Shown here piece by piece: positions 27,102 through 42,339 of a DNA stretch of 64,000 nt (its first letter is position 1; each line of letters opens with the position of its first letter). Under the pieces are notes generated by a model that saw only the letters and a list, made by a program, of their open reading frames with translations, ran no database searches and was not told the origin of the DNA. The position numbers and the translations under genes were made by a program. Source of the stretch: Desulfomicrobium orale DSM 12838 (GTDB lineage Bacteria > Desulfobacterota > Desulfovibrionia > Desulfovibrionales > Desulfomicrobiaceae); assembly GCF_001553625.1 (NCBI RefSeq), contig NZ_CP014230.1, forward strand, positions 1,860,001 through 1,924,000, in the 5' to 3' direction.

Positions 27102-27149
27102 CCGAGATCGCATACCTCACCGCCGGGGGGTGTTTTTTCGAAGCTGTGG

Positions 27150-27187
27150 AACCCTCGCATGGATGGCGCCATCCGCGAGGGTTTTTT
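27150..27187 (+). terminator. rho-independent terminator after the M16 peptidase
   Basis: ACCCTCGC at 27151-27158 pairs with GCGAGGGT at 27175-27182, with an inner GGATGG/CCATCC stem, followed by six T. It separates the peptidase (plus) from the accessory operon arriving on the minus strand. It may also slow minus-strand transcription, though that side lacks a T-run. Confidence 0.9.
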
Positions 27188-27206
27188 ATTACTTCAGGGC
27201 TGGATG

Positions 27207-27791
27207 TCAGACCATGTTCATGCGCTCCAGCACGAATCCTGTCGCGTCCCGGCGCAGGATATTGACACAGGCATAGTCCTGCGCCAGCCGGAAAACATGC
27301 TGCAGGGGCATGTCCAGCACACGGCACAGAATAGCCCGGTTCACACCGCCGTGAGCCACGATGGCCGCGGTATTTTCTCCGGCCGCAATGTCCAGAAAAG
27401 TCTTCCAGGTGCGCTCCTGCACCTCCCCGAAGCTCTCGCCTTCAGGTGGTGCGTAGCCGGTCAGATCGTGGCCGCGCAGTTCGTATTGCCCCGGAAAGAG
27501 GCGGCGAACCTCGTCCACAGTCAATCCTTCCCACTGTCCCAGAGAAATTTCGCGCAAATCCGCATGTATCTCCGGCGTCAGCAGGCTCCGGCCCAGGATG
27601 GCGGCGCTTTCCACACAGCGGGACAAGGGACTGCACACGATGCGTTCCAGACCTTTGTCCGCGAACCTTTCGGCCAGAGCGGCCATCTGATTCCGGCCCG
27701 TCGCGGTCAGAGGCAGGTCGCGCTGGCCTACAAAGCGGCGGGGCGAGCTTTGCGGGATTTCCCCATGGCGCAGCAGATAGATGATACTCAC
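27207..27791 (-). CDS. histidine phosphatase, CobC / phosphoglycerate-mutase-like
   Basis: A 194-residue member of the histidine phosphatase superfamily. The phospho-His motif LLRHGE is at residues 6-11, CSPLSRCVESA follows near 53, the proton-donor region LREISLGQWEGLT is near 80, and the second His is in VAHGGVNR near 145. This pattern resembles alpha-ribazole phosphatase (CobC), but the genomic setting is not cobalamin synthesis: it ends the aldehyde-oxidoreductase accessory operon. Its start overlaps the MocA-HD gene stop by 4 nt (ATGA), so it is co-translated. It may dephosphorylate a nucleotide or cofactor intermediate made by its neighbours; that is inference. Confidence 0.85.
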   Translation of the reverse strand: MSIIYLLRHGEIPQSSPRRFVGQRDLPLTATGRNQMAALAERFADKGLERIVCSPLSRCVESAAILGRSLLTPEIHADLREISLGQWEGLTVDEVRRLFPGQYELRGHDLTGYAPPEGESFGEVQERTWKTFLDIAAGENTAAIVAHGGVNRAILCRVLDMPLQHVFRLAQDYACVNILRRDATGFVLERMNMV

Positions 27792-28882
27792 GGCATTTCT
27801 TCCAGAATGTCTTCGATATTCCGCCCGGTTCGGGCTTCCACCAACCTCTGCATGGCCAGAGCATTCTGTCTGCGTTCAAAAATAGCCCGGCAGGCCGCTT
27901 CATCCCCGGCGTAGAGTGTGAGCTTTTGCGTGAAACGTTCTTCCACGCTGACGCGCGAGGGACCACGGACCAGCTTGTCGGCCAGATAGACGATCTCCTT
28001 TTCCGTGATCCGGCCGTCATCAGGAGGGGACGCATCCCGATGGGCAGCTACGGCGGCTGAGAGTCCACCCAACCCCAGTTCGTCAAGCAGGGCGGCCCCG
28101 GCGGTTTCATGGTCCGGAACGCCCTTGCCTATATCGTGCAGCAGGGCGGCGTTATGCGTAAGTTCCATATCCAGTTCCGCTCCGTGGCTATTGAGTGCCT
28201 CGGCCATGCACAGGGCGGCGCGGGCCACGGCCGCTCCATGGCCTAGGCCCTTTGCCGGCATGCTCAGCCGGGCCAGGGCCATGGCTTCGGCCCGTTCGCC
28301 AATATCCAGCCGCCGGACCTTGTCCTCCAGCCGGGCCATATCCACGGGTTGGTCCGCGTCCATGAGCACGCCTTGGTCCCAGACAGGCACCTCCTCCACA
28401 TGTTGTCCGGCCAGGAATCCGCGCAGGCCGCCTTCTCCGGAGTAATCCAGAAGTTCTGGAACAAGCCGGGCCGGGAGCAGCACCGGATGCCCGCGCTCGC
28501 CCTCGAAGCATGGACTGGCGGGAACCTTGTCGGCCGTGATCAGCATCCTGATGGTGGTGGGGCGGACAAGCGGAATATCCACGGGCAGCAGGAAAAAATC
28601 GGTTTTACTCGTGGCCGCCGCTGCCCGCACGGAAGAAAACATGCCGCGCTTGTACTCCGGGTTGTGGACGGCCCGTATGCCCAGGCGTTCGGCTTCGCCC
28701 TGGACCTCGGATGCGCGGTGCCCGGTGATCACGCGGATGTCTTCAACGCCCGCCGCCCGGAAGGAGGACACGCACCACTCCAGCAACGTGCGTCCGTCAA
28801 GATGCATGAGCGGCTTGAATCCCTTCATGCGTGAGGAAAAACCGGCCGCCAGAATGGCCGCTCCCGGAAGCGGGCGGTTCAT
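27788..28882 (-). CDS. MocA-like nucleotidyltransferase fused to HD domain
   Basis: 364 residues in two parts. Residues 1-195 are a MobA/MocA-type nucleotidyltransferase with AAILAAGFSSRMKGFKPL at 8-25, the metal-binding LLPVDIPLVRP near 98, and ERGHPVLLP. This type adds CMP to molybdopterin, the cofactor form known in Desulfovibrio gigas Mop. Residues about 215-350 are an HD hydrolase with MELTHNAALLHDIGKG and YLADKLVRG. Fusion of a cofactor transferase to a phosphohydrolase domain is unusual and implies paired addition and removal of a nucleotide or phosphate. The gene overlaps both neighbours by 4 nt. From memory, D. vulgaris carries a similar gene (DVU_1551) next to its aldehyde oxidoreductase cluster. 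Confidence 0.87.
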   Translation of the reverse strand: MNRPLPGAAILAAGFSSRMKGFKPLMHLDGRTLLEWCVSSFRAAGVEDIRVITGHRASEVQGEAERLGIRAVHNPEYKRGMFSSVRAAAATSKTDFFLLPVDIPLVRPTTIRMLITADKVPASPCFEGERGHPVLLPARLVPELLDYSGEGGLRGFLAGQHVEEVPVWDQGVLMDADQPVDMARLEDKVRRLDIGERAEAMALARLSMPAKGLGHGAAVARAALCMAEALNSHGAELDMELTHNAALLHDIGKGVPDHETAGAALLDELGLGGLSAAVAAHRDASPPDDGRITEKEIVYLADKLVRGPSRVSVEERFTQKLTLYAGDEAACRAIFERRQNALAMQRLVEARTGRNIEDILEEMP

Positions 28883-29889
28883 GCGCGGCCAGCCCGGACG
28901 GCCACAAGTTCCGCCACGACACTCACACCGATTTCCTCAGGCGTCTCGGCGCCGATATCAAGGCCGATAGGGCTGTGGACCCGGTCCAGATCGGCCTGGG
29001 TGAAGCCTTCCTCCAGCAGGGAGGAATACACGGACTCGCGTTTGCTCCGGCTGCCGATCATGCCGACATATCCGGCCCGCGTGCACAGGGCCTGGGCCAG
29101 AACGTGGCGGTCATGCAGATGGCCGCGGGTGACGATGACCACGTAATCGTCCGCATCGAGGCTGCCCAGGCAATCCTGGAAATTTTTCACCACGCGCACT
29201 TCTCTGGCTTGGGGAAAACGCCCGGCGTTGGCGAATTCCGGCCGGTCATCCAGAACGACCACATCAAAACCGGTGAAATGCGCCAGATGCGCTATGGCCC
29301 TGCCCACATGTCCCGCCCCGGCCACATGCACCGTCACGGGTGGGGACAGAGGCTCGGCCAGCACGCGCGTATCTTCCGTCTCCAGCCGGAAGGGCCGTCG
29401 TGTAGCGGCCTTGCGGGCCAGTTGCGTGCGCAGGGCGGCGGGCAGCGGGGCGGCCGTTTCATCCGCCGTGGTCCACAGAGCCAGAAAAGGCGCCGCCCCG
29501 GCCGCCGGGATGACGGTCAGCAGCATGGGGGTGTCCCGACGGTTCAGGGCGTCCTCGAAAAGCGGCAGATCCCCAGAAGTCAGGCATTGCAGCAGAATCG
29601 TGACCCCGCCGCCGCAGACCATGCCGCTTTCGGCGGACTGGGCGGCCGTCAGTTCAAAGGACAGGATGCGGTATTTCTCGGGAGCATGGAGCAGCGCCGC
29701 TGCCTCGTTCAGGCACGCGCCTTCCACCGCGCCGCCGCCGATGGAGCCCGTGAAGGTGCCGTCGGCGAAAACCAGCATGCGCGCTCCGGACGAGCGTGGC
29801 GAAGAGCCCGAATCATCCACGATTCCGCACAGGACGGCCTTCTGTCCTTGCCTGAGCACATCGGCCAGGGTTTCCACCAGTGCTTTCAT
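28879..29889 (-). CDS. xdhC: XdhC/CoxI-family molybdenum hydroxylase maturation protein
   Basis: 336 residues. XdhC proteins bind molybdenum cofactor and help insert its sulfurated form into xanthine dehydrogenase-family enzymes, which include Mop. N-terminal XdhC motif: DDSGSSPRSSGARMLV near 23-38 and GSIGGGAVEGA near 47. The C-terminal Rossmann part shows VHVAGAGHVGRAIAHLA near 190 and VGMIGSRSKRE near 280. I placed the start at ATG 29889 with GGGAGGAAATC directly upstream; the open frame extends further upstream but over the neighbouring ligase gene. It overlaps the neighbours by 4 nt on each side. Confidence 0.92.
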   Translation of the reverse strand: MKALVETLADVLRQGQKAVLCGIVDDSGSSPRSSGARMLVFADGTFTGSIGGGAVEGACLNEAAALLHAPEKYRILSFELTAAQSAESGMVCGGGVTILLQCLTSGDLPLFEDALNRRDTPMLLTVIPAAGAAPFLALWTTADETAAPLPAALRTQLARKAATRRPFRLETEDTRVLAEPLSPPVTVHVAGAGHVGRAIAHLAHFTGFDVVVLDDRPEFANAGRFPQAREVRVVKNFQDCLGSLDADDYVVIVTRGHLHDRHVLAQALCTRAGYVGMIGSRSKRESVYSSLLEEGFTQADLDRVHSPIGLDIGAETPEEIGVSVVAELVAVRAGRA

Positions 29890-31217
29890 GATTTCCTCCC
29901 GCGCCGGTCGGCGATAACGCGTTTCATGGTGTGCGATGGGGAAAAGGCAGCTATGGACGAGACGCGGAGTCTCCCTCGCGCCGCCATCGGGGCCAGCGCC
30001 GGGATGCCGGTCAGCGTCCGGAGGCATTCTGTCGTGGAGGCTTCCGTTCGGGCCAGCATCTCGATATCCAGCGTGTCCCCGCCATCTGCACCGAGCAGCA
30101 TCGCCCGGTAGTCCAGCACGCCCTCCAGGGCGAAGAGGGCGTCATCCAGAGTCTGGCTGTCCAGCGTACCGCCGTCCAGACGGACGAGGTTCCGGCGTCC
30201 CCGGATGCCGTAAATTCTCGCCGTGGCGCCGCCGCACCGGCAGACGGTGCGTGTGAGCCTGGCCGTATCGCCGGTGCGGTAGCGGATGAGCGGCATGGCT
30301 TGGCGGTTCAGGGTGGTGACGACCACCTCGCCCTCCGCGCCGTCAGGCAGGGGCCGGCCGCTTTCCGGGGCCACGATTTCCACCAGCAGATCGGCCTCGC
30401 GCATGTGGCAGCCGTCATGGGCGGCGCATTCCACGCCGCCTCCCAGGCCCGTTTCCGTGGCGCCGTAATGCACAAAGGTCTCGCATCCGCAGATGTTTTC
30501 CATCCGTTCGCGCAAGACAGACGGGGCGTAGTCCGAGCACAGCAGCATGGTCCGCACCGCGCCGTGGGGCAGGCCGTACGACAGGGCCAGCAGATGCTGG
30601 GGCAGTCCCACCACGCACGAAAAGCCGTTTTTCAGGACGCACTCCGCCATGCCCGAATCAGGAGGCCAGTACCCGGAAGCGGAAACGCCGCCTCCGGCCA
30701 GGGCCCGGATGAGCAGATCTCCCGTGCTGTCTGGGCGGTCAAAGGGCAGCAGAACCAGCACCTTGTCCCGGCCGTCGGCAAGGGCCGTCATGCCTTCCCG
30801 GAAAAATTCCAGGGTGCTTTCAAGGTCGGAGCGGGTGAAAAATATCCGCTTGGGCGCGCCGGTGCTGCCCGAAGTATGCAGAGTCATGATGCGGGCCACG
30901 TCACCTCGGGATACGCACAGCAGTTCATCCGCATGGGCGGCCAGTTCCCCGGCCGGGAGCAGGGGCAGATGGCTCAAGTCCTCCCGGCCGCGTAAATCCC
31001 CGGCGTGAATATCGAGGTGCTGGCGGTACCAGGGGCTGTTTGCCCGGGCATGAGCCACTGTCCGGCGCAGGGCGGCCATCTGCGCCGCCTCGATTCGATT
31101 CCGGTCCAGAGGAAGAGCCAGATTCAGGCGGCGGGCGGTCAGGGCGTCAACGGGCGTGGGACGCACGGGCTGCCGGTGTTCTTCCGGGAATTTCGCGGAG
31201 TTGTTCTGTCTGCCCAC
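29886..31217 (-). CDS. phenylacetate-CoA-ligase-like AMP-forming enzyme
   Basis: About 443 residues of the adenylate-forming family. The ATP loop is LHTSGSTGAPKRI near residues 110-122, the central motif is HYGATETGLGGG, and the ribose-binding motif is PLIRYRTGDTA. A Lys near the C-terminus (HTMKRVIAD) could be the catalytic lysine. It is similar to phenylacetate-CoA ligases but shorter than acyl-CoA synthetases, and its substrate is unknown. The start is uncertain: GTG at 31217 has TGAGGG 8 nt upstream, while GTG at 31232 overlaps the radical SAM stop. The much longer open frame reaching 32534 is only a shadow of the radical SAM gene. A CoA ligase inside a Mo-enzyme maturation operon is unexplained. 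Confidence 0.82.
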   Translation of the reverse strand: MGRQNNSAKFPEEHRQPVRPTPVDALTARRLNLALPLDRNRIEAAQMAALRRTVAHARANSPWYRQHLDIHAGDLRGREDLSHLPLLPAGELAAHADELLCVSRGDVARIMTLHTSGSTGAPKRIFFTRSDLESTLEFFREGMTALADGRDKVLVLLPFDRPDSTGDLLIRALAGGGVSASGYWPPDSGMAECVLKNGFSCVVGLPQHLLALSYGLPHGAVRTMLLCSDYAPSVLRERMENICGCETFVHYGATETGLGGGVECAAHDGCHMREADLLVEIVAPESGRPLPDGAEGEVVVTTLNRQAMPLIRYRTGDTARLTRTVCRCGGATARIYGIRGRRNLVRLDGGTLDSQTLDDALFALEGVLDYRAMLLGADGGDTLDIEMLARTEASTTECLRTLTGIPALAPMAARGRLRVSSIAAFSPSHTMKRVIADRRGRKS

Positions 31218-31228
31218 TGCCGCGGCCC

Positions 31229-32581
31229 TCACTGCCCAGGGTTTTCCCGTCTGGGCCGGTACAGGGGCCGTCCCGAGCGGGAAGTCAGGTTGAAGGCGCA
31301 AAAGGGAATGAGACGGCCGTCGGGCCGGGCCACATGGATGCAGCAGCCGCGCAGCCGTTCCAGATTGAGAGTCCAGGCGTCCTGAAAGGCCATGCCCGAA
31401 ATGCCGAATACATGGGTGCGCGCCCGGCGCAGAAAACGCTCCAGATCGTCGCCGCCTTCCCCGTCCGGAGGAGAATCCGGGGCGGTCCACTGTCTGGCCG
31501 TGACGGCGATGGATTTCAGGGCTCCGGCCTCGGCCGGTTGCGGGGCGCAGTCGCAGCGGGCTGCTCCAAGGCGCGTGAGTCTTCCGTCTTCCTGAACCAG
31601 AAAGCGGCCCGAAAAGGAGCACAGGGCGTGCTCGCATCCCGGCGGCAGGAAGTCTTTGGTCCTGACCAGCCCCCGGCTCTGCCGGGCCAGGCCGGTCATG
31701 ATTTCCGGCAGAGTGACGTGATCCGGGACAAAATCGGCGGGAACGCGGCCGAAATAGCTCACGGGCTGAAAATGCACGCCGCGTACGTGGGGCAGGTGTT
31801 TCAGGCCGAAGCGCACAAGCTCCCAGAGCTGGTCCAGGTTCACTCCGCGTCCGATGGTCGGCACCAGCACCACACCCAGACCCGCCGCGGCCAGATTCTC
31901 CACGGCCCGGCATTTCACTTCCAGCAGGTCCCGGCCGCGCAGCCGCCGGAACACGGCGTCCGTCACTCCGTCGAATTGCAGAAAGACGGACGACAGCCCG
32001 GCATCCTTGAGCAGATGGGCCAGCTCCGGTTCCAGGGCCAGAGCCAGACCGTTGGAGTTGAGCTGCACGAAGGAGAATCCGGCCTTTCCGGCTGCGCGGA
32101 CGATATCCGGCAGATCCTCGCGGACGGTGGGCTCCCCGCCCGAAAGTTGCAGGTTGCAGCCGCCGGTGCGGTCCATGATCCGGCCGAACATGCGGCGCAG
32201 GGTCTCCAGGTCCGGGTCCGGAGTGTTGCCGCCGCTGTCGGCGAAGCAGACCGGACAGCACAGATTGCAGCGCTCCGTGACTTCCACCAGAGCCGTGCAG
32301 GTACGCTGGGCGTGGGCGGAGCACAGCCCGCAGTCGAAAGGGCATCCGCGCCGCGTCTGTTCGCGCGGGCCGCCCGGAAAGGGAATTTTGGGCCGGACCC
32401 AGCCCGAGAAAGGCGGATTGCCGCGCCAGACGGCGGCGGAGAAGAAGCCGTGTTCGGGGCAGTGTTTTTCCAGGTGCACGGTTTCGCCGCGCTGGACAAG
32501 CTCTCCCCGGATGCGGCGCAGGCATTGCGGGCATACGCTGTCCGCATGGGACAGGTGCCGCTTCGGATCCTGTTCAGGCAT
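31229..32581 (-). CDS. radical SAM protein of the Mop accessory cluster
   Basis: 450 residues. The radical SAM cluster motif CX3CX2C is ERCNLCCPVC (Cys105, 109, 112), followed by NLQLSGGEPTVRED, the SAM-binding GGE motif. An N-terminal metal-binding region of about 90 residues has CPQC, HCPEHG and CPFDCGLC; a cysteine-rich stretch (CEHALCSF, CDC) lies near 330-360. This layout resembles the family I recall as TrsS, which in some species contains selenocysteine. Here no in-frame TGA is needed, and the position just after the motif reads Phe-Ala-Asp. It overlaps the C_GCAxxG_C_C gene by 8 nt. The reaction is unknown; modification of a cofactor or the enzyme is plausible. Confidence 0.88.
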   Translation of the reverse strand: MPEQDPKRHLSHADSVCPQCLRRIRGELVQRGETVHLEKHCPEHGFFSAAVWRGNPPFSGWVRPKIPFPGGPREQTRRGCPFDCGLCSAHAQRTCTALVEVTERCNLCCPVCFADSGGNTPDPDLETLRRMFGRIMDRTGGCNLQLSGGEPTVREDLPDIVRAAGKAGFSFVQLNSNGLALALEPELAHLLKDAGLSSVFLQFDGVTDAVFRRLRGRDLLEVKCRAVENLAAAGLGVVLVPTIGRGVNLDQLWELVRFGLKHLPHVRGVHFQPVSYFGRVPADFVPDHVTLPEIMTGLARQSRGLVRTKDFLPPGCEHALCSFSGRFLVQEDGRLTRLGAARCDCAPQPAEAGALKSIAVTARQWTAPDSPPDGEGGDDLERFLRRARTHVFGISGMAFQDAWTLNLERLRGCCIHVARPDGRLIPFCAFNLTSRSGRPLYRPRRENPGQ

Positions 32582-33020
32582 GGGCTGCGTCCAGAGGATC
32601 GATGCCGTTTTCCGCCAGCAGGGTCATCACCTTGCCGAAGCATTCCGCCACCAGACCGCCGCAGGTCTGTGGATCGGGTTTGCCGTCGTCCACGATGTCC
32701 GCGCAGCGGATGCCGCCGAAACGCTCCCGGGCGTATTGCTCGAACCATTCGGCCAGTTCGGCCTGCATGAGGGGCAGTCGCTCGTGGGCTTCCTCTTCCG
32801 GTGCTCCCTTGCCCGCGTACCAGGACAGCAGACAGGCCGCGCCGGTCAGCGTTCCGCAGGCTCCCCGGCTGGAGGAAAAGCCGTAGCACAGCCCGGCCAT
32901 GGCCCGGACCAGACCTGGGTTGTCCGCGCCGGACTGCTCAAGACCCAGAAGCATGACGACCTGAGCGCAGCAATAGCCCGCATGTCCCAGACGCAGGATG
33001 TCGAGATCGTAGTCGCTCAT
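32574..33020 (-). CDS. C_GCAxxG_C_C family redox protein
   Basis: A 148-residue helical protein named for its conserved cysteines: GYCCAQ at residues 15-20, GACGTLTGAACLLS near 54-67, and TCGGLVAECF near 118. Members often sit beside redox enzymes and may bind a metal cluster, but no function is established. The last residues (GIDPLDAAHA) overlap the start of the radical SAM gene by 8 nt, and its own start overlaps the methyltransferase stop by 4 nt. This tight packing implies stoichiometric production with its neighbours. Confidence 0.88.
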   Translation of the reverse strand: MSDYDLDILRLGHAGYCCAQVVMLLGLEQSGADNPGLVRAMAGLCYGFSSSRGACGTLTGAACLLSWYAGKGAPEEEAHERLPLMQAELAEWFEQYARERFGGIRCADIVDDGKPDPQTCGGLVAECFGKVMTLLAENGIDPLDAAHA

Positions 33021-33793
33021 GGAAAACTCCTTGTGTTGATGGCGGGGCCGGGGTCTTTCAGATTTTCATTCTCTGACGGTGCGGGCGGCGTGGCGGAGAC
33101 TCCGGGTTTTCGCACGGCTACCAGCAGAAAGAGTCCGGGACGGCTGGATTGCGCCGCCTGGCAGGCCTCGGCGGCCATTTTTTCGTCGCCGGTCACGGCC
33201 CGCCAGAAACCGTGCAGGGAACCATGGCGGAAAACGAACTCCGCCGCTGTCCGGGCCAGCAGGGGGGAGTGGTCTTCCAGCGCTTCCACTGCAAATCCGG
33301 CCGCTTCCATCCGCTTCCGGGTATCGTCCAGAGTGGCGGCCTGGGCGAAGCAGCAGCGTACGGGCCAGGAGCTGTTCGTTTCGCCGCGTGCAAAAATGTC
33401 GGAGAGAAGAAGTCTGCCTCCGGGTCTGAGTACGCGCGCGAATTCCGTCATGGCCAAGCTCTTGTCCGTCAGATTCCACGCGCATTCGCAGATGACCAGA
33501 TTCATGCAGGCCGGGGCCAGCGGCATGCGGGCCAGATCACCCCGCACAGCCCGGACACCCGTCTTGCGTGCCTCGCCGAGCAGGGTGGCGTCCAGATCGA
33601 GCCCCAGGGGGCGCAGGCCGTAGTCCCGCAACAGGGCCAGAGTGGCTCCGGTCCCGCATCCGGCGTCCAGCGCCATGCTGCCGGGTTCCGGCGCGGCCAG
33701 TTCCAGCATGCGCCGGGTCAGGAGTTCGCCGCCGGGGCGCAGAGTCGCTCCCAGAGTCCGGCGTACGGGATCTGAGAGGTGCAGGGTGGTCAT
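33017..33793 (-). CDS. class I SAM-dependent methyltransferase
   Basis: About 258 residues. The SAM motif I is ALDAGCGTGATLALL, motif II is GLDLDATLL, and a post-I segment is VRGDLARMP, followed by VICECAWNLTDK and RPGGRLLLSD as in UbiE/COQ5-like enzymes. The target is unknown. I chose ATG 33793 (CCAGG 7 nt upstream); ATG 33811 is equally possible. The C-terminal 30 residues are proline-rich and probably disordered. It lies 48 nt after the small CxxC protein gene and overlaps the next gene by 4 nt. A methyltransferase plus radical SAM protein in one operon may build or repair a methylated or thioether group. Confidence 0.85.
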   Translation of the reverse strand: MTTLHLSDPVRRTLGATLRPGGELLTRRMLELAAPEPGSMALDAGCGTGATLALLRDYGLRPLGLDLDATLLGEARKTGVRAVRGDLARMPLAPACMNLVICECAWNLTDKSLAMTEFARVLRPGGRLLLSDIFARGETNSSWPVRCCFAQAATLDDTRKRMEAAGFAVEALEDHSPLLARTAAEFVFRHGSLHGFWRAVTGDEKMAAEACQAAQSSRPGLFLLVAVRKPGVSATPPAPSENENLKDPGPAINTRSFP

Positions 33794-33841
33794 GTCGTGC
33801 CTGGAATGCATGGTTTGCGCGCTTGTCGGAGCTCGCCCGCG

Positions 33842-34051
33842 TCATTTGTCTTCCAGCAGCTGTTCCACTTCGAGCATACGGCCCATGGCCAGCGCTTCGT
33901 AGATGAAAACCCGTCCGCACACGGGACAGACCGGCAGTTCCACCTGAAAAGAGCCGCCCAGGTAGGTCAGCTCGGTCTTGCCCGGTTTAAGACGCGCGCC
34001 GCAGGGCCGGCATGTCCAGTTCATGTCCTCGGGCAGAAAACTGAGGCTCAT
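33842..34051 (-). CDS. small double-CxxC redox/zinc-ribbon protein
   Basis: Only 69 residues. Two CxxC knuckles, TCRPCGARL near residue 13 and PVCPVCGRVF near 41, suggest zinc or iron binding as in zinc ribbons or rubredoxin-like proteins. The rest is a beta stretch (LTYLGGSFQVEL) and a C-terminal helix (ALAMGRMLEVEQLLED). The start ATG 34051 has GGAGG 6-7 nt upstream and overlaps the stop of the Fe-S/FAD gene by 4 nt. A longer open frame upstream belongs to the neighbour's shadow. From memory, a similar 'DVU_1557 family redox protein' occupies this place in D. vulgaris. Confidence 0.83.
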   Translation of the reverse strand: MSLSFLPEDMNWTCRPCGARLKPGKTELTYLGGSFQVELPVCPVCGRVFIYEALAMGRMLEVEQLLEDK

Positions 34052-36318
34052 GCGCCCTCCTTGCCGATCCGCATGCGGTGGCTCCAGACGTTCAGGATTT
34101 CGGAGCCGCCGTCCAGAGGCCGGTATTCCACCCAGAAGGTGACTTCGCCCAGCCGGGCCGAGGCCACTTCCCGGCCGTCTTCCCCGTGAGTGAAATATTC
34201 TCCGCTTTCTTTGGCCCGGAAAAGCACCCGGCGCAGATCGTCCTCCAGAATGCGCCGCTTTTCCAGCAATTCGGCCACGGGCCCGGAAATGGAGAGGGGC
34301 AGGCTTTCCCAGGGAGCTGCAGGCGCTGGAGGCCGTCCGCAACCGGAAAGCAGATCGTTTTTCAGGCGGCGGCGGTTCGCCCGGCGCGTGGAAATGCCCG
34401 CCGGAGGTTCGCCGGCCGGATGGGCGGCATCGGGGAAGAGCACGTCCAGCATATGCAGGACGGGCTTTCTGGTTCTGGCCAGCTGGTCCCGGCACATGGC
34501 GCAGTAAGTCAGAAAGCAGTCGTCGCTCTGGGCGGCTCTGGCTTCGGCCGTTTTACGGGCCAGATCGGGATTGGCGCTGTCCATGAGCCCGCCGAAACCG
34601 CAGCATTCGGTCAGTTCGCCGGACATGGGAAGCGGGGCCAGGGGCTGTCCGGCCTTTTCCAGCAGAGCTCGGACGGCCGCACGGGTCAGGCCGTCATGGC
34701 GCGCGGTGCATGGATCCGACAGGGCCAGCGGGAGGCCAGGGGCAGCCGTCCCTTTCACAGGATGTTCGGCCAGAAAGATCCACACGGACAGCACTTCAAG
34801 GCCGGGCAGGTGTTCTCGGAACATCTTCAGACATGTGGAACAGGCGGCCAGAATGCGCGGTTGTCCGGACTGTTCCCAAAGCTGCCGGAGATCGTCGCAC
34901 AGGCCGGAAAATTCCCCGGTCCGTCCGGACCAGTGAGCCGGAGCGCCGCAACAGTCCAGCCAGACTCCGGTGGCCGGTTCCAGTTCCAGCAGGCGCTCAT
35001 ACAGCCGCGCGGTCTGGTCCGGCCGGATGCCCGCCAGCTGACAGCCCGGAAAAAACAGCACCGCGCTTTTGTCCTGTCCCGGACCGTGGGCCAGCAGCGC
35101 GCCTTCTGACCTGGCCGAACGCATTTCCTCCAGAGCGAACCAGTGGGCCGAGGGCGGCATGCGCTTTTCGCGGACCATCTGCCGCCGGGCGTCCAGACAC
35201 ATGTCGGCCATGGAAAAGCTGTTGGGACAGAGAACTTCGCACTGCCCGCACAGGGCGCAGGAATTGATGAACTTGTTGGCCTGCCGCGCGCCCTGGACAA
35301 TGGCCGAATTGTTGAACACCCGCCGGGCGTAGGTTTTGGGGTAGGCACCGTATTCCCTGAGGTACACGCAGTGGCGCACGCATTCCAGACACTGGCAGTC
35401 GATGCAGCGCGAGGCTTCCTGCGTGGCCTCCTGGGGCACGTACCCGCCGGGCGGTGCCGGCACGATGCGTGGCTCGGGACGGATGCCCTGAAGATTGGTG
35501 AACAGGTCCGTGTGTCCGGAGCGGGGAAAGACGCGGCTGGCCGTAAGAGACGCGCCCTGAAGATGGCGGTCCATGGAGGTCGCCGCTTCCCGGCCGTGGG
35601 ACAGGGCGCCGATGAAACGGAATTCGCACGGGACCGCGCCTCCGGTGAACCAGCCCGGTTTTTCCAGGGCCATGGTCCGGGCGTCGGCCTTGCCCAGAGC
35701 CGCCAGCAGGGCTGGATCGGTATGGTCGTCCTGGCCGATGTACACGGCGTCGGCCGGATGGGCCTCAATCAGCGCCAGATCCAGAGATTCGGCGGCGGCA
35801 AAGAACACGCGCAAAGATTCCAGAATGCGGATCTCCTCGTCCAGAACGCGGGCGGGCAGGATTTCATCGGGCAGATCGCGCAGCCAGCCTCCGGGTGCCG
35901 TGTCCAGATGATATACGGTGACCGGGTAGCCTTTTTTGCCCAGGTCGAAGGCCACCGCCAGACTGCTCGGCCCCGAGCCGATGACGGCCGCCTTCTTGGG
36001 CCGGGCGGGCAGACGCAGAATTTTGGCCCGCGTATCGCAGCGGGCCGCACAGGATCGCTCCAGCAGGCCGATGGCCAGCGGGCCGCCCAGATCTTTTCGC
36101 AGGCAGAATTTTTCGCACGGCGCTTCGCACAGTCTGGCCGTGATGCCCGCCAGTGGCATGGTTTTTTCCAGCACGGCCCAGGCCGCGCGCGGATTGTCCC
36201 GTCCCATGGCCAGGACGAAGGCCCGTGCATCCACGCCCAGAGGACACCCGGCCCGGCATGCGGGCGGTTCTTCCTGGATGCATTTGGCTTCCCATTCCCG
36301 CAGTTCCTTCTGGTCCAT
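34048..36318 (-). CDS. multi-domain Fe-S/FAD oxidoreductase with HdrB-like CCG domains
   Basis: 756 residues in four blocks. Block 1 (1-100) is a glutamate-synthase-small-subunit-like dicluster region with Cys13, 21, 25, 64, 68, 72. Block 2 (about 108-290) is an FAD-binding Rossmann fold with AAVIGSGPSSLAVAFDLG. Block 3 (about 300-375) is a second dicluster ferredoxin (CIDCQCLECVRHC; CALCGQCEVLCP). Block 4 (about 425-625) has two CCG-type motifs as in heterodisulfide reductase subunit B (FFPGCQLAG...DCCGAPAH; TECCGFGGLMDS). A C-terminal region of about 100 residues follows. It probably moves electrons between a pyridine nucleotide or ferredoxin and a disulfide or maturation partner. It lies 242 bp downstream of mop, separated by strong hairpins, and overlaps the small CxxC gene by 4 nt. 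Confidence 0.87.
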   Translation of the reverse strand: MDQKELREWEAKCIQEEPPACRAGCPLGVDARAFVLAMGRDNPRAAWAVLEKTMPLAGITARLCEAPCEKFCLRKDLGGPLAIGLLERSCAARCDTRAKILRLPARPKKAAVIGSGPSSLAVAFDLGKKGYPVTVYHLDTAPGGWLRDLPDEILPARVLDEEIRILESLRVFFAAAESLDLALIEAHPADAVYIGQDDHTDPALLAALGKADARTMALEKPGWFTGGAVPCEFRFIGALSHGREAATSMDRHLQGASLTASRVFPRSGHTDLFTNLQGIRPEPRIVPAPPGGYVPQEATQEASRCIDCQCLECVRHCVYLREYGAYPKTYARRVFNNSAIVQGARQANKFINSCALCGQCEVLCPNSFSMADMCLDARRQMVREKRMPPSAHWFALEEMRSARSEGALLAHGPGQDKSAVLFFPGCQLAGIRPDQTARLYERLLELEPATGVWLDCCGAPAHWSGRTGEFSGLCDDLRQLWEQSGQPRILAACSTCLKMFREHLPGLEVLSVWIFLAEHPVKGTAAPGLPLALSDPCTARHDGLTRAAVRALLEKAGQPLAPLPMSGELTECCGFGGLMDSANPDLARKTAEARAAQSDDCFLTYCAMCRDQLARTRKPVLHMLDVLFPDAAHPAGEPPAGISTRRANRRRLKNDLLSGCGRPPAPAAPWESLPLSISGPVAELLEKRRILEDDLRRVLFRAKESGEYFTHGEDGREVASARLGEVTFWVEYRPLDGGSEILNVWSHRMRIGKEGA

Positions 36319-36379
36319 AGTCTGTTCCGCTTGTTACGGATCGCTGAATTTCAACTCGTAATGGTTTCGGGCCGTATCG

Positions 36380-36395
36380 CCGCTTTGGAAAGCGG
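36380..36395. promoter_or_regulatory. 16-bp palindrome upstream of the Fe-S/FAD gene
   Basis: CCGCTTT-GG-AAAGCGG, a perfect 7-bp inverted repeat 62 bp upstream of the gene starting at 36318. It may be an operator or a leader hairpin controlling the accessory genes separately from mop. Confidence 0.4.
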
Positions 36396-36465
36396 TGTGT
36401 AACGAGGAACTTCTCCCGGCCGGTCAGGATATGTGCATGGAGCGCGCCCGGCTGCGGGAAATTTC

Positions 36466-36533
36466 CACCCCTTTTCACACGGTTCGTTCCGGACAGGAAA
36501 AACCCGCCCGGAACGAACCGTGTGAAAGGGGTG
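36466..36533. repeat. 26-bp stem hairpin between mop and accessory genes
   Basis: The arm at 36466-36492 (starts CACCCCTTTTCACACGG) pairs with 36508-36533 (ends TGTGAAAGGGGTG) with a single one-base bulge across a 15-nt loop. Read on the minus strand it follows the mop stop by 28 nt. No T-run follows, so it is unlikely to be a simple terminator. A stability or processing element that leaves mop mRNA more abundant than downstream mRNA is the simplest reading. Confidence 0.8.
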
Positions 36534-36549
36534 CAGGGGAAGCCCCTGC
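36533..36549 (-). repeat. small hairpin directly after mop
   Basis: GCAGGGG at 36533-36539 pairs with CCCCTGC at 36543-36549 over a 3-nt loop, 11 nt past the mop stop. It abuts the 26-bp hairpin, making a two-hairpin 3' end for the mop message. Confidence 0.6.
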
Positions 36550-36560
36550 GGATTCTTCTC

Positions 36561-39278
36561 TTACTTCTTCATGGCCGCCAGAACCTTCTCCGGCAGGGCC
36601 GGGAGTTCGCGCACGCGGGCTCCACAGGCGTTGTAGATGGCGTTGATCACGGCCGCGTGGGGCGCGGTCAGTGGCATCTCGCCCACACCGGAGGCGCCGA
36701 ACGGTCCGGCCGGACGCGGGGTTTCCACATAGATGATCTCCATGTCGTCAGGAATGTCCTTGATATACGGAATGCCCGCGCCCCGGATGGTGGCGTGCTT
36801 CTTCAGGTCCTCATAGTCTTCGGTCAGGGCCAGGCCGATGCCCTGGGCCAGGCCGCCGTATACCTGTCCGTCCACCAGAGAGTAGTTGTTGACCACGCCG
36901 ATGTCGCCCACAATGGTCATTTTTTCCGTGGTGGTCTTGCCCGTGGCCGTATCCACCGCCACTTCGGCCAGAAACAGGCCGTACATGTAGCAGGCGAAGG
37001 GATTGCCCTGTCCGTCGGCATCGCAGTCCTTGGCCGGGGCCGTCCACTTGCCGTTGTAGCGCAGAGGCAGTTTTTCCTGGACCATCTCATCGTAGGTGCG
37101 GAAACCGCCTCCGGGCTTGGTCATGGCCTTGATGAGCTGCTCACAGGCGTTGATGATGGCCTGCCCGCCTACCACCTGGGACCGGCTGCCGCCCGCCGGG
37201 CCGGTATTGGGAGCCAGACGGGTGTCGTTCATGACCAGACGGATCCTGTCCGGGCCGATGCCGAGGGGCCGCAGGGCCTCGTGGGCCGTGCCCAGGGTGC
37301 CCATGTCCGCGCCCTGGCCGTGATCCTGCCAGCAGTCGTAAATGGTCACGCTGCCGTCGGGCATGAGTTCGGCGTCTGCTTCGGCGCTGTCCGCGCCGTC
37401 CAGACCCGCGCCGTACACGCCGAGGGCCACGCCGACTCCGCGTTTGAGACCGTTGCCGGATGCGGCGGCCGCGCGCTTTTTGGCTGCCTCGTATTTGGGC
37501 CGCATGAGGTCGAACATCTCGGGCAGACTGTACACTTCCGGATCTTGACCCGTGGGTGTGGTGGAACCCTTACGGTAGACGTTTTTATAGCGCAGTTCAA
37601 AGGGGTCCATGCCCAGCTTTTCAGCCAGCTCGTCCATCAGGGATTCGGAACCGAACTCGCTCTCCGGCGAGCCGTAGCCGCGGAAGGCCGCGCCCCAGGC
37701 GTGGTTGGTGCAGACCGTCCGGCCTTCGCCGCGGATGTTGGGGATGTCGTAGCCCGCGCCGATGTACTGGGCGCCGCGCAGGGTCAGCAGATCGCCGAAC
37801 TCCGAGTATGGGCCGTGGTCCACGGTCCAGTCCGTTTCCATGCCCAGAAGCTTGCCGTCCTTGGTGGCGGCGTAGCGCACAGTGGTGAAGAAGGGCGAGC
37901 GCTTGCCGGTGTAGGCCTGCTGCTGGCGGTAGTTGTAACCCAGATATACGGGCCGTCCGGTGGCCAGGGCCGCCGCGCCGATCAGGGCTTCCATGGTCGG
38001 GCTGAACTTGTAGCCGAAGGTGCCGCCCGTGGGGTTCTGCACCAGAGCCAGCTGATCGGGCTCCAGACCCAGGCCCGGCGCGATCATGTACAGATGCAGG
38101 TGCAGGCCGATGGATTTGGAATGGATGATCAGTTTGCCGTCGTCGTCGATGTAGGCGAAGCCGCAGTCCGGCTCGATGGGCAGATGGGGCTGGCGCTGGG
38201 TGTAATAGCTGCCTTCGACGACCACGTCGGCCTGGTCGAAGATGGGGGCCGTTTCCTCGCCCTTGGCCACCTTCTGGATGTAATAGACGTTGGGCGTGCC
38301 CGGATGGATTTCGATGGCGTCCTCGGCCATGGCTGCGGGAGCGCTCATGTATTCGGGCAGCTGTTCTATCTCCACCTTCACTTTTTTGGCCGCGGTCTTG
38401 GCGTTTTTCTCCGTGTCGGCGCAGACGATGGCTATGGCGTCGCCGTACTGGAAGATTTTCTCATCGCACAGAATGGGGCGGTCCCAGCCGTCGCCCTTGT
38501 TGGTGGGGAAGGTGATGAGGCCGGTGATGCGGTTTTTGCCCTTGACGTCCTTGTGTGTGACCACCTTGTACACGCCGGGCATCTTTTCGGCTTCAGACGT
38601 GTCGATGGACAGGATTTTGGCGTGAGATACCTCGGCCTGGACCAGGGCGCACATGAGAGCGTTTTCCGGCAGTTTCAGGCCCAGATCCGCGCCGTAGTCC
38701 AGAGTGCCGGTGACCTTGCCCAGGGCCGAGGGCCGGGGATGTCTGGTGCCCCAGACGCGGCCGTCGGAGGGAATTTTGTACTCCAGATCCGCCGCGCTCT
38801 TTTCTCCGCGCAGCACCTTGGCCGCGTCCATGACGGCGTCCACCAGAGGCTTGTAACCGGTACACCGGCAGGCATTGCGGTGTTTCTGGAACCAGTCGCG
38901 GACTTCTTCCCGCGTGGGCCTGGGGTTGGAATCCAGAAGCCCCTTGGCCGAGACGATGAAGCCTGGAGAGCAGAAGCCGCACTGGGCGGCGCCGTGCAGC
39001 ATCCAGGACAGCTGGAGCGGATGGGGACTGGCCGGGGTGCCGATGCCCTCGATGGTGGTGATGTTCGCTCCGTCCTCCACGCGTTTCATCCTGGTGGCGC
39101 AGGAGCGGACGACTTTGCCGTCCATGAGGACGCTGCACGCGCCGCACTGACCCTCGCCGCAGCCGACCTTGGTGCCGGTCAGACCGAGACTTCTGCGGAT
39201 GACGTCGGCCAGGGTATCTTCCGCGTCCACTACGAGATTTCTGGCGACTCCGTTGACCACGATTGTTTTCTTGATCAT
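36561..39278 (-). CDS. mop: molybdenum aldehyde oxidoreductase (Mop)
   Basis: Oxidises aldehydes to carboxylic acids; xanthine-oxidase family, 905 residues, close in length and sequence to the D. gigas enzyme (907). The N-terminal plant-type [2Fe-2S] site is GCGEGQCGACS with a further Cys in RSCATR; the second [2Fe-2S] site is CGFCSPG and CRCTGYKP. The Mo-binding part contains NPTGGTFGYKFSPT, AFRGYGSPE, QDHGQGADMG and the catalytic glutamate in GASGVGEMPL near the C-terminus. It has no FAD domain, as in D. gigas, and no signal peptide. GGAGGAACGCGC precedes the ATG. It sits between a MoeA-like gene and the accessory operon, which would mature its cofactor. Confidence 0.97.
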   Translation of the reverse strand: MIKKTIVVNGVARNLVVDAEDTLADVIRRSLGLTGTKVGCGEGQCGACSVLMDGKVVRSCATRMKRVEDGANITTIEGIGTPASPHPLQLSWMLHGAAQCGFCSPGFIVSAKGLLDSNPRPTREEVRDWFQKHRNACRCTGYKPLVDAVMDAAKVLRGEKSAADLEYKIPSDGRVWGTRHPRPSALGKVTGTLDYGADLGLKLPENALMCALVQAEVSHAKILSIDTSEAEKMPGVYKVVTHKDVKGKNRITGLITFPTNKGDGWDRPILCDEKIFQYGDAIAIVCADTEKNAKTAAKKVKVEIEQLPEYMSAPAAMAEDAIEIHPGTPNVYYIQKVAKGEETAPIFDQADVVVEGSYYTQRQPHLPIEPDCGFAYIDDDGKLIIHSKSIGLHLHLYMIAPGLGLEPDQLALVQNPTGGTFGYKFSPTMEALIGAAALATGRPVYLGYNYRQQQAYTGKRSPFFTTVRYAATKDGKLLGMETDWTVDHGPYSEFGDLLTLRGAQYIGAGYDIPNIRGEGRTVCTNHAWGAAFRGYGSPESEFGSESLMDELAEKLGMDPFELRYKNVYRKGSTTPTGQDPEVYSLPEMFDLMRPKYEAAKKRAAAASGNGLKRGVGVALGVYGAGLDGADSAEADAELMPDGSVTIYDCWQDHGQGADMGTLGTAHEALRPLGIGPDRIRLVMNDTRLAPNTGPAGGSRSQVVGGQAIINACEQLIKAMTKPGGGFRTYDEMVQEKLPLRYNGKWTAPAKDCDADGQGNPFACYMYGLFLAEVAVDTATGKTTTEKMTIVGDIGVVNNYSLVDGQVYGGLAQGIGLALTEDYEDLKKHATIRGAGIPYIKDIPDDMEIIYVETPRPAGPFGASGVGEMPLTAPHAAVINAIYNACGARVRELPALPEKVLAAMKK

Positions 39279-39308
39279 GCGCGTTCCTCCGAATTTGTGG
39301 CGGCTCAG

Positions 39309-39340
39309 ATTATATATTTCTCCTCAGGGATGTTTCCCTG
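39309..39340 (-). promoter_or_regulatory. candidate mop promoter with overlapping dyad
   Basis: On the minus strand TATAAT (39309-39314) lies about 31 bp upstream of the mop start. A perfect dyad CAGGGA-TGTT-TCCCTG (39325-39340) covers the place where a -35 box should be. It may be a regulated promoter allowing mop to be transcribed apart from the MoeA-like gene. No consensus -35 is visible. Confidence 0.4.
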
Positions 39341-39362
39341 CTTTCCACAAGCCCGCCGCGGC

Positions 39363-40385
39363 CTACGCCTTTCCAAACCCGCAGACCGGGTAGCGGCAGT
39401 CCGGACAGTTTTCGCACAGTCCTCCGTGCCCCAGAGCCTCGATGTCCTGCCTGGAGAGGCGTTCTCCGGCCAGCAGGCGCGGCACGGCCAGATCGAAGAT
39501 GCTGGCCTTGTGGTACATGACGCAGCCCGGCAGCCCCACCACGGGAATATCTCCCAGATAGGCCAGCATGAACATGGCTCCGGGGTACATGGGCGCGCCG
39601 TATGAAACCACTTCCGCTCCGGTCCGGCGGATGGCCGCCGGAGTCTGATCGTCCGGATCCACGCTCATGCCGCCGGTCACGGCGATGAAATCCGCTCCCC
39701 GTCCGGCCAGATCCGAAATGGCGTCCATGGTCATGTCCACCTGGTCCGAAACGAATACCTGATCCAGGATGGAGGACCCCAGATGCTCGAATTTCCGTTT
39801 GAGAACGGGGCCGAAACCGTCCTTGATCCGTCCGGTGTAGACCTCGCTGCCGGTGGTCACCACGCCGACCCGGGCCGCTCGCAGGGGGCGCACCTCGATG
39901 AGCGGGGCGTTCCCGGCGCAGATGTCTTCGGCTTGGCGCAATATGTCTTCGGGTATGGCCAGAGGGATGATGCGGGTGCCGGCCACCATCCGTCCGGCTT
40001 TGACGAACTGGCCGGTGTGAATGGTAGCGAAGGTGATGTCGGGAACGGAGTTGAGGCGCAGGAGCGCTTCCGTGTCGATGCGCAGCAGGCCGTCATGGCT
40101 CGCAGTAAGGGAGGATTTGCCCTCACTCGGGGAACCGATGGAGATTCCCGGCCCTGAGGCCGCCCTGGCCAGACGCAGGGCGCATTCGTCCTCGTGCACG
40201 TAGCCGTCTCTGGGGTCGAAGACGAAGAGGTTGGCCTTGCCGATGTCGAGCAGGGCGGGGATGTCTTCGGGGCGGACCACATGCCCGCGCCGGAATGCGG
40301 GCTCCTTGCAGCGGCCCGGAACGATGCGGGTGATGTCATGGCACAGCACCGTGCCGACGGCGTCTTCAACGGGAATGGTTTTCAT
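39363..40385 (-). CDS. MoeA/MoaB-like molybdopterin-binding protein
   Basis: 340 residues with a molybdopterin-binding MoCF domain at about 170-310: RVGVVTTGSEVYTGRI, TGGMSVDPDDQTP and VVGLPGCVMYHKAS match the MogA/MoeA fold. The N-terminal half lacks the full MoeA four-domain layout, and the tail is a cysteine cluster (CENCPDCRYPVCG) that could bind a metal. The start is ATG 40385 with AAAAAAGGA 6-7 nt upstream; a longer open frame has no support. It lies 84 bp upstream of mop on the same strand. It probably delivers or senses molybdopterin for Mop rather than acting as the general MoeA; that is inference. Confidence 0.83.
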   Translation of the reverse strand: MKTIPVEDAVGTVLCHDITRIVPGRCKEPAFRRGHVVRPEDIPALLDIGKANLFVFDPRDGYVHEDECALRLARAASGPGISIGSPSEGKSSLTASHDGLLRIDTEALLRLNSVPDITFATIHTGQFVKAGRMVAGTRIIPLAIPEDILRQAEDICAGNAPLIEVRPLRAARVGVVTTGSEVYTGRIKDGFGPVLKRKFEHLGSSILDQVFVSDQVDMTMDAISDLAGRGADFIAVTGGMSVDPDDQTPAAIRRTGAEVVSYGAPMYPGAMFMLAYLGDIPVVGLPGCVMYHKASIFDLAVPRLLAGERLSRQDIEALGHGGLCENCPDCRYPVCGFGKA

Positions 40386-41667: not shown

Positions 41668-42339
41668 TCAGAAACGTGTGGCCAGTACCCGGTGGATCAT
41701 GGCCAGCACGGAGGCGGGGGGATGAAGCGGATTGTCGATCCGGCCGATGACGCCGTGCACGGGAAAGCCGGAAATTCCGCTGATGGCCCGGATGTTTTCG
41801 TTTCGTTCGGCTTCGGGCGTGGCATCGTCCGGGTCCAGCAGGAAAACGCCCAGGCACGAGCCCTGCCGGGCACGGATGGCTTCCAGGGTGAGCAGGGTAT
41901 GATTGATGGTGCCAAGCCCCGCCCGGCCCGCCACCAGAATGGAGGCCTTTGTCTCCAGAGCCAGATCGAGCATGGTTTTTTCGGACGTGACGGGCACCAG
42001 CACGCCGCCCGCTCCTTCGACCACGGTCCAGGAATACCAGGCGGCATGGGCCAGCACGAAATTTACGGCGGCCTGAAAGTCCACGGGTTCTCCGGCGAAC
42101 AGGGGCGCTTTGGGCGGAACGCGGCAGGCGTGGATGGCCTGTGCGGGTGTGGTGGGCAGGCCGTCGGGCAGGTGGCGGTGCACGAAGGCCGGGTCGGAAT
42201 CCGTGTCGGGATCGGAACAGCCCGTCTGCACGGGCTTCAGATACACCGCGTCCCGGCCGTGCAGGGCGTGCATGACCAGCAGGCTGAGCATGGTCTTGCC
42301 TGCGTCCGTATCCGTGCCGGTGATGAAAATGATGTTCAT
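41668..42339 (-). CDS. bioD: dethiobiotin synthetase
   Basis: ATP-dependent closure of the ureido ring from diaminopelargonate and CO2. 223 residues. The P-loop is ITGTDTDAGKT at 6-16; the substrate Lys is in YLKPVQTG at 34-41; the second phosphate/metal site is VVEGAGGVLVP near 110. The start ATG 42339 overlaps the bioF stop by 4 nt (ATGA). There is no bioA in the window, so the diaminopelargonate transaminase must be elsewhere. The upstream open frame continues into bioF and is not part of this gene. Confidence 0.94.
   Translation of the reverse strand: MNIIFITGTDTDAGKTMLSLLVMHALHGRDAVYLKPVQTGCSDPDTDSDPAFVHRHLPDGLPTTPAQAIHACRVPPKAPLFAGEPVDFQAAVNFVLAHAAWYSWTVVEGAGGVLVPVTSEKTMLDLALETKASILVAGRAGLGTINHTLLTLEAIRARQGSCLGVFLLDPDDATPEAERNENIRAISGISGFPVHGVIGRIDNPLHPPASVLAMIHRVLATRF

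Follow-up and report, generated by a model that had tools for sequence, protein, structure and literature searches.

The 64,000-nucleotide stretch of the Desulfomicrobium orale DSM 12838 genome analysed here (the window) carries a run of eleven genes on the minus strand, from a MoeA-like gene starting at 40385 to a phosphatase gene ending at 27207. The MoeA-like protein (39363..40385) has a MoCF_biosynth domain (PF00994, E 7e-22) and a Cys-rich C-terminus, and its TIGR00177 score is under the cut-off. After a gap of 84 nt it is followed by mop (36561..39278), which encodes a molybdenum aldehyde oxidoreductase of the MCD type (905 aa; NF045668, 1707 bits, cut-off 1100). No other MoCoBD_1 protein was found in the genome, and Mop matches the solved enzymes of D. 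desulfuricans (1DGJ) and D. gigas (1SIJ/1VLB) over the full length with approx. 1500 bits. A MoeA-like gene precedes Mop by at most 600 nt in 15 of the 16 loci having both. The spacer of 242 nt (36319..36560) between mop and the next gene, Diclu, contains a very strong predicted hairpin (arms 36474-36494 and 36506-36526; MFE of the spacer -113.9 kcal/mol, z -6.7). Values of z <= -3 were obtained for 43 of 53 Mop-Diclu spacers, compared with 40 of 120 other same-strand gaps.

Diclu (34048..36318; NF045663, 922 bits; PF14691, PF13534, PF02754) ends in a C-terminal domain of 87 aa, CtD (34051..34311; AlphaFold pLDDT 89.5), and is followed by CxxC2, a double-CxxC protein of 69 aa (33842..34051; NF045645, the DVU_1557 family, 96.6 bits; PF24292, DUF7479). 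Next come a class I SAM methyltransferase (MTase, 33017..33811; NF045667, the DVU_1556 family, 217.6 bits; PF08241), a C_GCAxxG_C_C family protein (GCA, 32574..33020; NF045669, 177 bits; PF09719), the Tes-type radical SAM enzyme TrsS (31229..32581; NF045646, 633.5 bits) and a PaaK-type adenylate-forming enzyme with a GTG start (AMP-ligase, 29886..31232; NF045666, 391 bits). The last three genes code for an XdhC-family Moco maturation factor (28879..29889; NF045664, 394.7 bits; XdhC domains), a MocA-like cytidylyltransferase fused to an HD domain (MocA-HD, 27788..28882; NF045665, 405.6 bits; PF12804 and PF01966) and a histidine phosphatase resembling alpha-ribazole phosphatase (27207..27791; PF00300; TIGR03162, 154.7 bits, just below the cut-off of 162.9). 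A hairpin 3' of the last gene (27114..27206; MFE -30.4 kcal/mol, z -2.2) is the candidate transcript end. The junctions from Diclu on are, in order, an overlap of 4 nt, a gap of 30 nt and overlaps of 4, 8, 4, 4, 4 and 4 nt.

The initial annotation of this DNA had described a one-strand gene train around a molybdenum aldehyde oxidoreductase, with overlaps at nearly every junction after mop. The train is borne out by the eleven genes, and its domain assignments were confirmed by Pfam and NCBIfam. The overlaps hold from Diclu on (seven of eight junctions, 4 or 8 nt each) and fail at the Mop-Diclu spacer and between CxxC2 and MTase. The MocA, XdhC and MoeA-like genes fit molybdenum cofactor maturation, as was proposed, and the comparable set named at DVU_1551-1559 of D. 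vulgaris and the name TrsS both proved right, since the NCBIfam names and the gene order agree. Nine of the eleven proteins score above curated NCBIfam cut-offs (NF045645, NF045646, NF045663-NF045669), the exceptions being the MoeA-like protein and the phosphatase. The cluster had thus already been recognised, yet without an explanation, the NCBIfam set being unassigned in function. In the literature on DVU1551-1560, DVU1558 and DVU1559 appear in passing mentions only.

Co-occurrence of the gene set with Mop

Seven core genes (Mop, Diclu, CxxC2, MTase, GCA, TrsS and AMP-ligase) are collinear in 57 of the 85 inspected loci, from four phyla, and stand in the same order in the window; thus the set, which comprises up to eleven genes and is found in anaerobic bacteria belonging to four or more phyla, is no chance grouping. 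Among 229 Desulfovibrionales genomes, Mop was found in 149 and TrsS in 142, both in 139, Mop only in 10 and TrsS only in 3 (Fisher p 1.5e-45, a value which ignores kinship). Most of the mismatches were accounted for on inspection. In three of the Mop-only genomes (G298, G347, G358) TrsS is present and had been overlooked because it was found in pieces, in two (G290, G292) the sequence stops within the gene set, and in G419, a reduced genome, the whole set is decaying together with Mop. Three others (G294, G415, G437) are Mop-only by the search, and the last, G224, is a 100%-complete genome with an intact Mop, lacking TrsS and a full Diclu. The six core genes other than Mop, for which the known Moco pathways indeed have no role, track Mop very tightly, the search linking them to it in 139 of the 149 Mop genomes and inspection in more. 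Response-regulator and sensor genes, identified by eye, recur near many of the Mop-linked sets.

A different situation was met in a sample of 178 Desulfobacterota genomes, where TrsS occurs in 21 (20 above the cut-off and one partial match). Six of these have no Mop, and in four of the six (G036, G070, G096, G115) TrsS and the AMP-ligase are present and no Mo hydroxylase was detected at E <= 1e-60. Diclu above the cut-off and Mop have identical genome lists in this sample; the Diclu matches in G003 and G165 were rejected as unrelated GltD-type fusions. The Mop-free sets branch separately and deeper in the TrsS tree, which leaves an almost obligate tie to Mop inside the Mop-linked clade. The quartet of MTase, GCA, TrsS and AMP-ligase is separable from Mop (loci L024, L041), and Mop-free sets adjoin a TfrA-like fumarate reductase (L142-144) or double-cubane/HGD-type proteins (L119, L148). 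Conversely, Mop-Diclu-CxxC2 is found without an adjoining quartet as second copies in L032, L036 and L045, and likewise in L169 and L170. DMSO reductase was considered as a second partner (L145-147, L149, L064) and rejected, since the TrsS of these loci nest inside the Mop-linked clade; in two of the genomes with such sets (G182, G191) Mop-Diclu-CxxC2 is also present elsewhere.

The initial annotation had read the set as a system for the modification or repair of Mop. In its broader form, the quartet and the redox proteins would keep the active site competent by maturation, reactivation or repair, either through re-reduction of the pyranopterin dithiolene or through a labile group which is installed and then lost on purification. 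The near-obligate link across the order would fit a maturation factor equally well, and the joint decay in G419 points the same way. Furthermore, the activity of D. gigas Mop varies between batches, some being inactive, and it can be restored with dithionite plus sulfide, which act through the dithiolene redox state (PMC3877041); hence the need for redox repair of Mop is real. However, D. gigas carries the complete core locus and the crystal structures of its Mop, for which a native model at 1.28 A served in refinement, contain the ordinary pyranopterin cytidine dinucleotide (PCD) (PMC3877041). These published structures leave room for a labile change; the re-reduction of a dithiolene would presumably need neither a radical SAM C-H activator nor a methyltransferase or an AMP-ligase. 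TrsS sets without Mop exist, and G224 keeps its Mop intact without the set. A comparison of this solitary Mop with 65 linked ones showed differences in 5 of 180 near-invariant columns, none of them a cysteine, thus no clear signature of a lost modification site was seen. The routine occurrence of the six genes without any Mo hydroxylase, named beforehand as evidence against modification or repair, was found in part, for TrsS and the AMP-ligase in the four Desulfobacterota genomes, although their TrsS lie outside the Mop-linked clade and, given this position, may do something different. On balance, the modification or repair reading is supported in part at most, and we consider maturation, reactivation or repair of Mop unlikely.

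TrsS, its companion enzymes and Diclu

The nearest solved chain to TrsS is 7TOL (the tetraether lipid synthase Tes, also GDGT-MAS, MJ0619, which fuses archaeal lipids; 258 bits, about 30% identity). The predicted model of TrsS has the Tes fold (TM 0.81 to 7TOL, 0.43 for the next fold); with the Tes NCBIfam model it scores 314 bits, well under the cut-off of 450. The metal ligands of Tes, taken from PMC9433317, are all kept in both TrsS groups (96 aligned rows): the rubredoxin site CX2CX20CX2H, the N-cluster CX3CX2C plus His, the radical SAM motif CX3CX2C and the C-cluster ligands Cys321, Cys413, Cys428 and Met397. No in-frame TGA (selenocysteine) was found in the window copy of trsS or in the further loci examined. 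The Pfam zinc-ribbon name 'HMPTM' had suggested pterin modification by TrsS; this was rejected, because the name goes back to the old assignment of MJ0619 as a pterin methylase, for which Lloyd et al. found no corroboration (PMC9433317).

As TrsS conserves every metal site of Tes together with the SAM-gating loop, it might be a true bacterial lipid-coupling enzyme and the set might make a membrane-spanning or modified lipid. Nevertheless, the set contains no lipid-biosynthesis genes and is tied tightly to soluble redox enzymes, and brGDGT synthesis by bacterial Tes homologues is a hypothesis only (PMC8941075). We regard this possibility as highly improbable. It follows as a caution that the bacterial Tes homologues tallied as possible brGDGT enzymes (PMC8941075) may include TrsS proteins serving redox enzymes.

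Among the companions of TrsS, the MTase has conserved Cys52 and Cys110, and no related solved structure was found for GCA. The AMP-ligase is closest to phenylacetate-CoA ligases among solved structures and its Lys437 is kept in both groups of loci. Since its PaaK-like relatives handle aryl- and acyl-acids, the quartet could make or consume the specific aldehyde or acid of Mop, the AMP-ligase activating the acid formed by Mop in a catabolic or biosynthetic route. The neighbours of the Mop-free sets (TRAP transporters, acyl-CoA enzymes, a corrinoid protein with RACo, or HGD-type proteins) would be in line with such a dedicated pathway, as would the regulator and sensor genes seen by eye near many Mop-linked sets. 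On the other hand, the quartet is constant while the adjoining enzymes vary widely, and sulfate reducers of the D. vulgaris type, which have the set, have a narrow catabolic range. We consider a dedicated pathway rather unlikely.

Diclu consists of a GltD-like N-terminal Fe-S/FAD part, a dicluster Fe-S domain, two HdrB-type CCG motifs and CtD. Both CCG motifs (about CX30-39CCX32-36CXXC) are present in all of 73 Diclu copies as well as in the window copy. CCG domains are, however, also part of enzymes with no known action on thiols (GlpC, LutA, GlcF). CtD is elsewhere standalone or fused to CxxC2 (L022, L053, L080, L146), and its AlphaFold model weakly matches a RelE/BrnT-like fold (best Z 8.2 to BrnT). 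A check of CtD and CxxC2 for a toxin-antitoxin pair of the RelE/MqsR-MqsA type, in which a RelE-like fold adjoins a YgiT-type zinc finger, gave weak matches throughout (DUF4258, E 0.11; YgiT finger, E 0.02-0.05). All four Cys of CxxC2 are kept in both groups of loci.

A possible small-molecule pathway and its relation to known systems

The locus may be regarded as one functional system of three separable units. Mop and Diclu, the latter uniting in one polypeptide portions similar to HdrA, HdrC and HdrB, would form the enzyme unit, Diclu acting as the dedicated electron-transfer partner together with CtD and CxxC2. A Moco unit (MoeA-like, XdhC, MocA-HD) would load Mop, and the domain content suggests that the MoeA-like protein probably inserts molybdate. 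The quartet would most likely be a small-molecule pathway rather than a protein- or pterin-modifying machine, and we tentatively favour, with somewhat less than even confidence, the explanation that its product, possibly a redox carrier, is used by Mop and the Hdr-like Diclu. TrsS would apply tetraether-synthase chemistry, in which a 5'-deoxyadenosyl radical abstracts a hydrogen atom at an unactivated sp3 carbon, the latter being bound to a sulfur of the C-terminal [4Fe-4S] cluster with its labile Met ligand. The AMP-ligase would convert a carboxylate to an acyl-adenylate ready for coupling, with methylation by the MTase. The product would be a redox-active carrier, possibly a thiol, which meets the CCG centre of Diclu and accepts electrons from aldehyde oxidation by Mop. 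The hairpin 3' of mop fits higher levels of Mop than of the downstream enzymes, as expected if the downstream set is biosynthetic.

It is quite doubtful that the product is an undescribed diffusible coenzyme, e.g. a thiol made by TrsS through C-H activation on the cluster sulfur, which serves Mop and Diclu as electron carrier; if so, bacteria of at least four phyla would have an analogue of the coenzyme M/coenzyme B pair of methanogens. Mop, a classic aldehyde-oxidising enzyme, is almost never found alone; its usual companions are the Tes-type TrsS, the AMP-ligase, the MTase and the Hdr-like Diclu. Should a cofactor be what the quartet makes, anaerobes would possess a novel coenzyme and a novel electron route, both testable in the existing D. 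vulgaris mutant libraries.

TrsS shares with Tes the fold, all four metal sites and the SAM-gating-loop residues Gln, Ser and Arg, but it sits in a redox gene set rather than a lipid set. Diclu has the dicluster Fe-S domain and the two CCG motifs in common with the heterodisulfide reductase HdrABC and the thiol:fumarate reductase TfrB (its match to the TfrB model is weak, 53 bits), and differs from them in the GltD-like N-terminus, in the extra CtD domain and in that no thiol substrate is known for it. The D. gigas locus differs from the window in a nitroreductase-like gene inserted between Mop and Diclu, and XdhC and MocA-HD genes were not seen within the 20 kb stretch around it; flavodoxin is a working in vitro partner of D. 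gigas Mop (PMC10223205). A resemblance to the maturation genes of selenium-dependent molybdenum hydroxylases is seen in Sporomusa loci, which add XdhC-like genes beside the set, together with a cysteine-desulfurase-like gene and a small protein of 104 aa (the latter two identified by eye). These additions are absent from the window, and D. gigas Mop has no extra Mo ligand of the selenium-dependent kind.

Organisation and distribution of the gene set

The eleven genes of the set lie on the minus strand between positions 40385 and 27207 and comprise, in the order of transcription, a MoeA-like gene, the Mo aldehyde oxidoreductase gene mop and nine others, coding for Diclu (a GltD/dicluster/CCG Fe-S protein), the double-CxxC protein CxxC2, MTase, GCA, the radical SAM enzyme TrsS, AMP-ligase, XdhC, MocA-HD and a His-phosphatase. 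Successive junctions are gaps of 84 and 242 nt, an overlap of 4 nt, a gap of 30 nt and overlaps of 4, 8, 4, 4, 4 and 4 nt. The gene and domain calls of the initial annotation were borne out on checking; the 69-aa CxxC2 (34051-33842, minus strand) is too short for a plain length cut, and Mop is the sole protein found with a MoCoBD_1 domain in the D. orale genome. Directly upstream (41668-45383, minus strand) an apparent biotin cluster was seen by eye, with acyl carrier protein, ketoacyl synthase, BioF-like and BioD-like genes, in agreement with the specialised-ACP biotin route that D. vulgaris is reported to use (PMC10102598).

Nine of the eleven proteins exceeded the NCBIfam models NF045645, NF045646 and NF045663 to NF045669, named for D. 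vulgaris DVU_1551 to DVU_1557 or for features. The literature search found no paper addressing the function of the set, and in a 2026 review (PMC13188914) TrsS figures as a radical SAM selenoprotein and nothing more; the set had been recognised before, in the form of these models, without being explained.

Purpose-built profiles were used to score whole-genome stretches together with 80 TrsS loci, the latter taken from named genomes. Neighbouring pairs were in order and at most 600 nt apart in most loci having both (TrsS to AMP-ligase 80/85, MTase to GCA 71/78), and the seven core genes, Mop to AMP-ligase, were collinear in 57 of 85 loci. The hosts belong to Desulfobacterota, Chloroflexota, Campylobacterota and Bacillota. 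XdhC and MocA-HD, both Moco genes, are absent from most Chloroflexota loci, as is the phosphatase, so that the core holds together more closely than the maturation genes do. Mop was present in 50 of the 53 loci with sufficient flank. By eye, a nitroreductase-like gene intervenes between Mop and Diclu in D. gigas, and four Sporomusa loci contain, within the set, additional XdhC-like genes, a gene resembling cysteine desulfurase and one for a small protein of 104 aa, which recall the maturation genes of selenium-dependent Mo hydroxylases.

The spacer between mop and diclu holds a near-perfect long inverted repeat (36474-36526, minus strand) and a very strong hairpin (z -6.7). Strong hairpins reappear in this spacer across phyla, with z of -3 or below in 43 of 53 cases; for the other same-strand gaps of these loci, a control set not purged of Mop-Diclu spacers, the figure is 40 of 120. 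Such a hairpin would be consistent with production of Mop in excess of the downstream enzymes.

Association with Mop and a possible role in its modification

The initial annotation had proposed phylogenetic profiling against Mop. Among 229 Desulfovibrionales genomes, 149 had Mop, 142 TrsS and 139 both (Fisher p 1.5e-45, kinship ignored). Most mismatches were inspected: three were missed matches, four came from contig ends and one was a decaying cluster, explanations which do not take in three further genomes (G294, G415, G437). In the decaying cluster Mop is in two frames, Diclu and MTase are broken, and neither TrsS nor AMP-ligase was detected. In three loci (L158-L160) the whole-genome search overlooked TrsS because it was found in pieces; such searches give too low a count of TrsS. 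Clear exceptions were G224 (100% complete), the single clear case of Mop without the set, and G402, with TrsS without Mop. Among 178 Desulfobacterota genomes, Diclu passed the cut-off in 15, identical to the 15 with Mop (14 over cut-off, one divided between two contigs), while TrsS occurred in 21 (20 over cut-off, one partial match), namely these 15 and 6 without Mop.

A modification or repair system had also been suggested. The genome with the exact D. gigas Mop (100% over 515 aa) has the order MoeA-like, Mop, Diclu, CxxC2, MTase, GCA, TrsS, AMP-ligase. D. gigas Mop structures contain an ordinary cofactor, the sulfido ligand being absent (PMC3877041), and no modification of the protein is reported. 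A stable visible mark on the cofactor is thereby contradicted; a labile or purely redox effect may still occur. That the set serves Mop maturation appears unlikely to us: the inactivation of D. gigas Mop by dithiolene oxidation and its reactivation by reductants (PMC3877041) would suit a redox effect, but the unmarked cofactor from a host having the set speaks against a maturation role.

Sets without Mop

The Mop-free sets, in the six sampled genomes and others around them, contain TrsS, AMP-ligase, MTase and CtD (the C-terminal domain of Diclu) or CxxC2. They lie next to enzymes of other kinds: in L142-144 a TfrA-like fumarate reductase, accompanied by a corrinoid protein and RACo; in L119 and L148 HGD-type/double-cubane proteins along with an ATPase; and in L123 and L124 TRAP transporters. 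In the TrsS tree these sets fall outside a 98%-supported group of 87 rows, nearly all of them linked to Mop or to a DMSO reductase. Two genomes of the latter kind also carry the Mop-Diclu-CxxC2 trio elsewhere. The quartet MTase-GCA-TrsS-AMP-ligase adjoins a formate-dehydrogenase-like DMSO reductase family gene in L146, L147, L149 and L064, the assignment in L147 and L064 being by eye; in L146 an FmdE family gene lies next to that reductase gene. By eye, it adjoins PiT-type permease genes in L024 and L041, with no Mop within the stretch examined, and in L024 a ModE-like regulator is also near.

We tentatively prefer the reading, held at somewhat below even chances, that the quartet is a small-molecule pathway linked to an enzyme unit for aldehyde oxidation and to the Moco loaders of that unit (MoeA-like, XdhC, MocA-HD). 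A dedicated metabolic route is rated slightly lower than the maturation role.

Comparison of Diclu, CxxC2 and TrsS with known proteins

Diclu has a GltD-like N-terminus followed by a dicluster domain and two CCG motifs of HdrB type, the latter present in 73/73 copies. In Mop-free sets CtD stands alone, and in four loci (L022, L053, L080, L146) it forms a fusion with CxxC2. Its predicted fold is weakly RelE/BrnT-like (Z 8.2) and CxxC2 bears a weak likeness to the YgiT zinc finger; the two may possibly be a domesticated toxin-antitoxin-like pair.

The nearest solved protein to TrsS is the M. jannaschii tetraether synthase, Tes (258 bits), to which the predicted TrsS model (pLDDT 89.6) fits with a TM of 0.81, the runner-up fold being MoaA (0.43). 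Of the Tes metal ligands (PMC9433317), those of the rubredoxin site, the N-terminal cluster and the radical SAM cluster are kept in both TrsS groups; for the C-terminal cluster three Cys are invariant, and Met397 falls opposite the labile Met439 of Tes. Gln268, Ser271 and Arg275 of the Tes loop correspond in the alignment to Gln272, Ser275 and Arg279 of TrsS. The sequence match, fold, ligands and loop residues shared with Tes argue that TrsS very likely performs Tes-type chemistry on an unactivated carbon.
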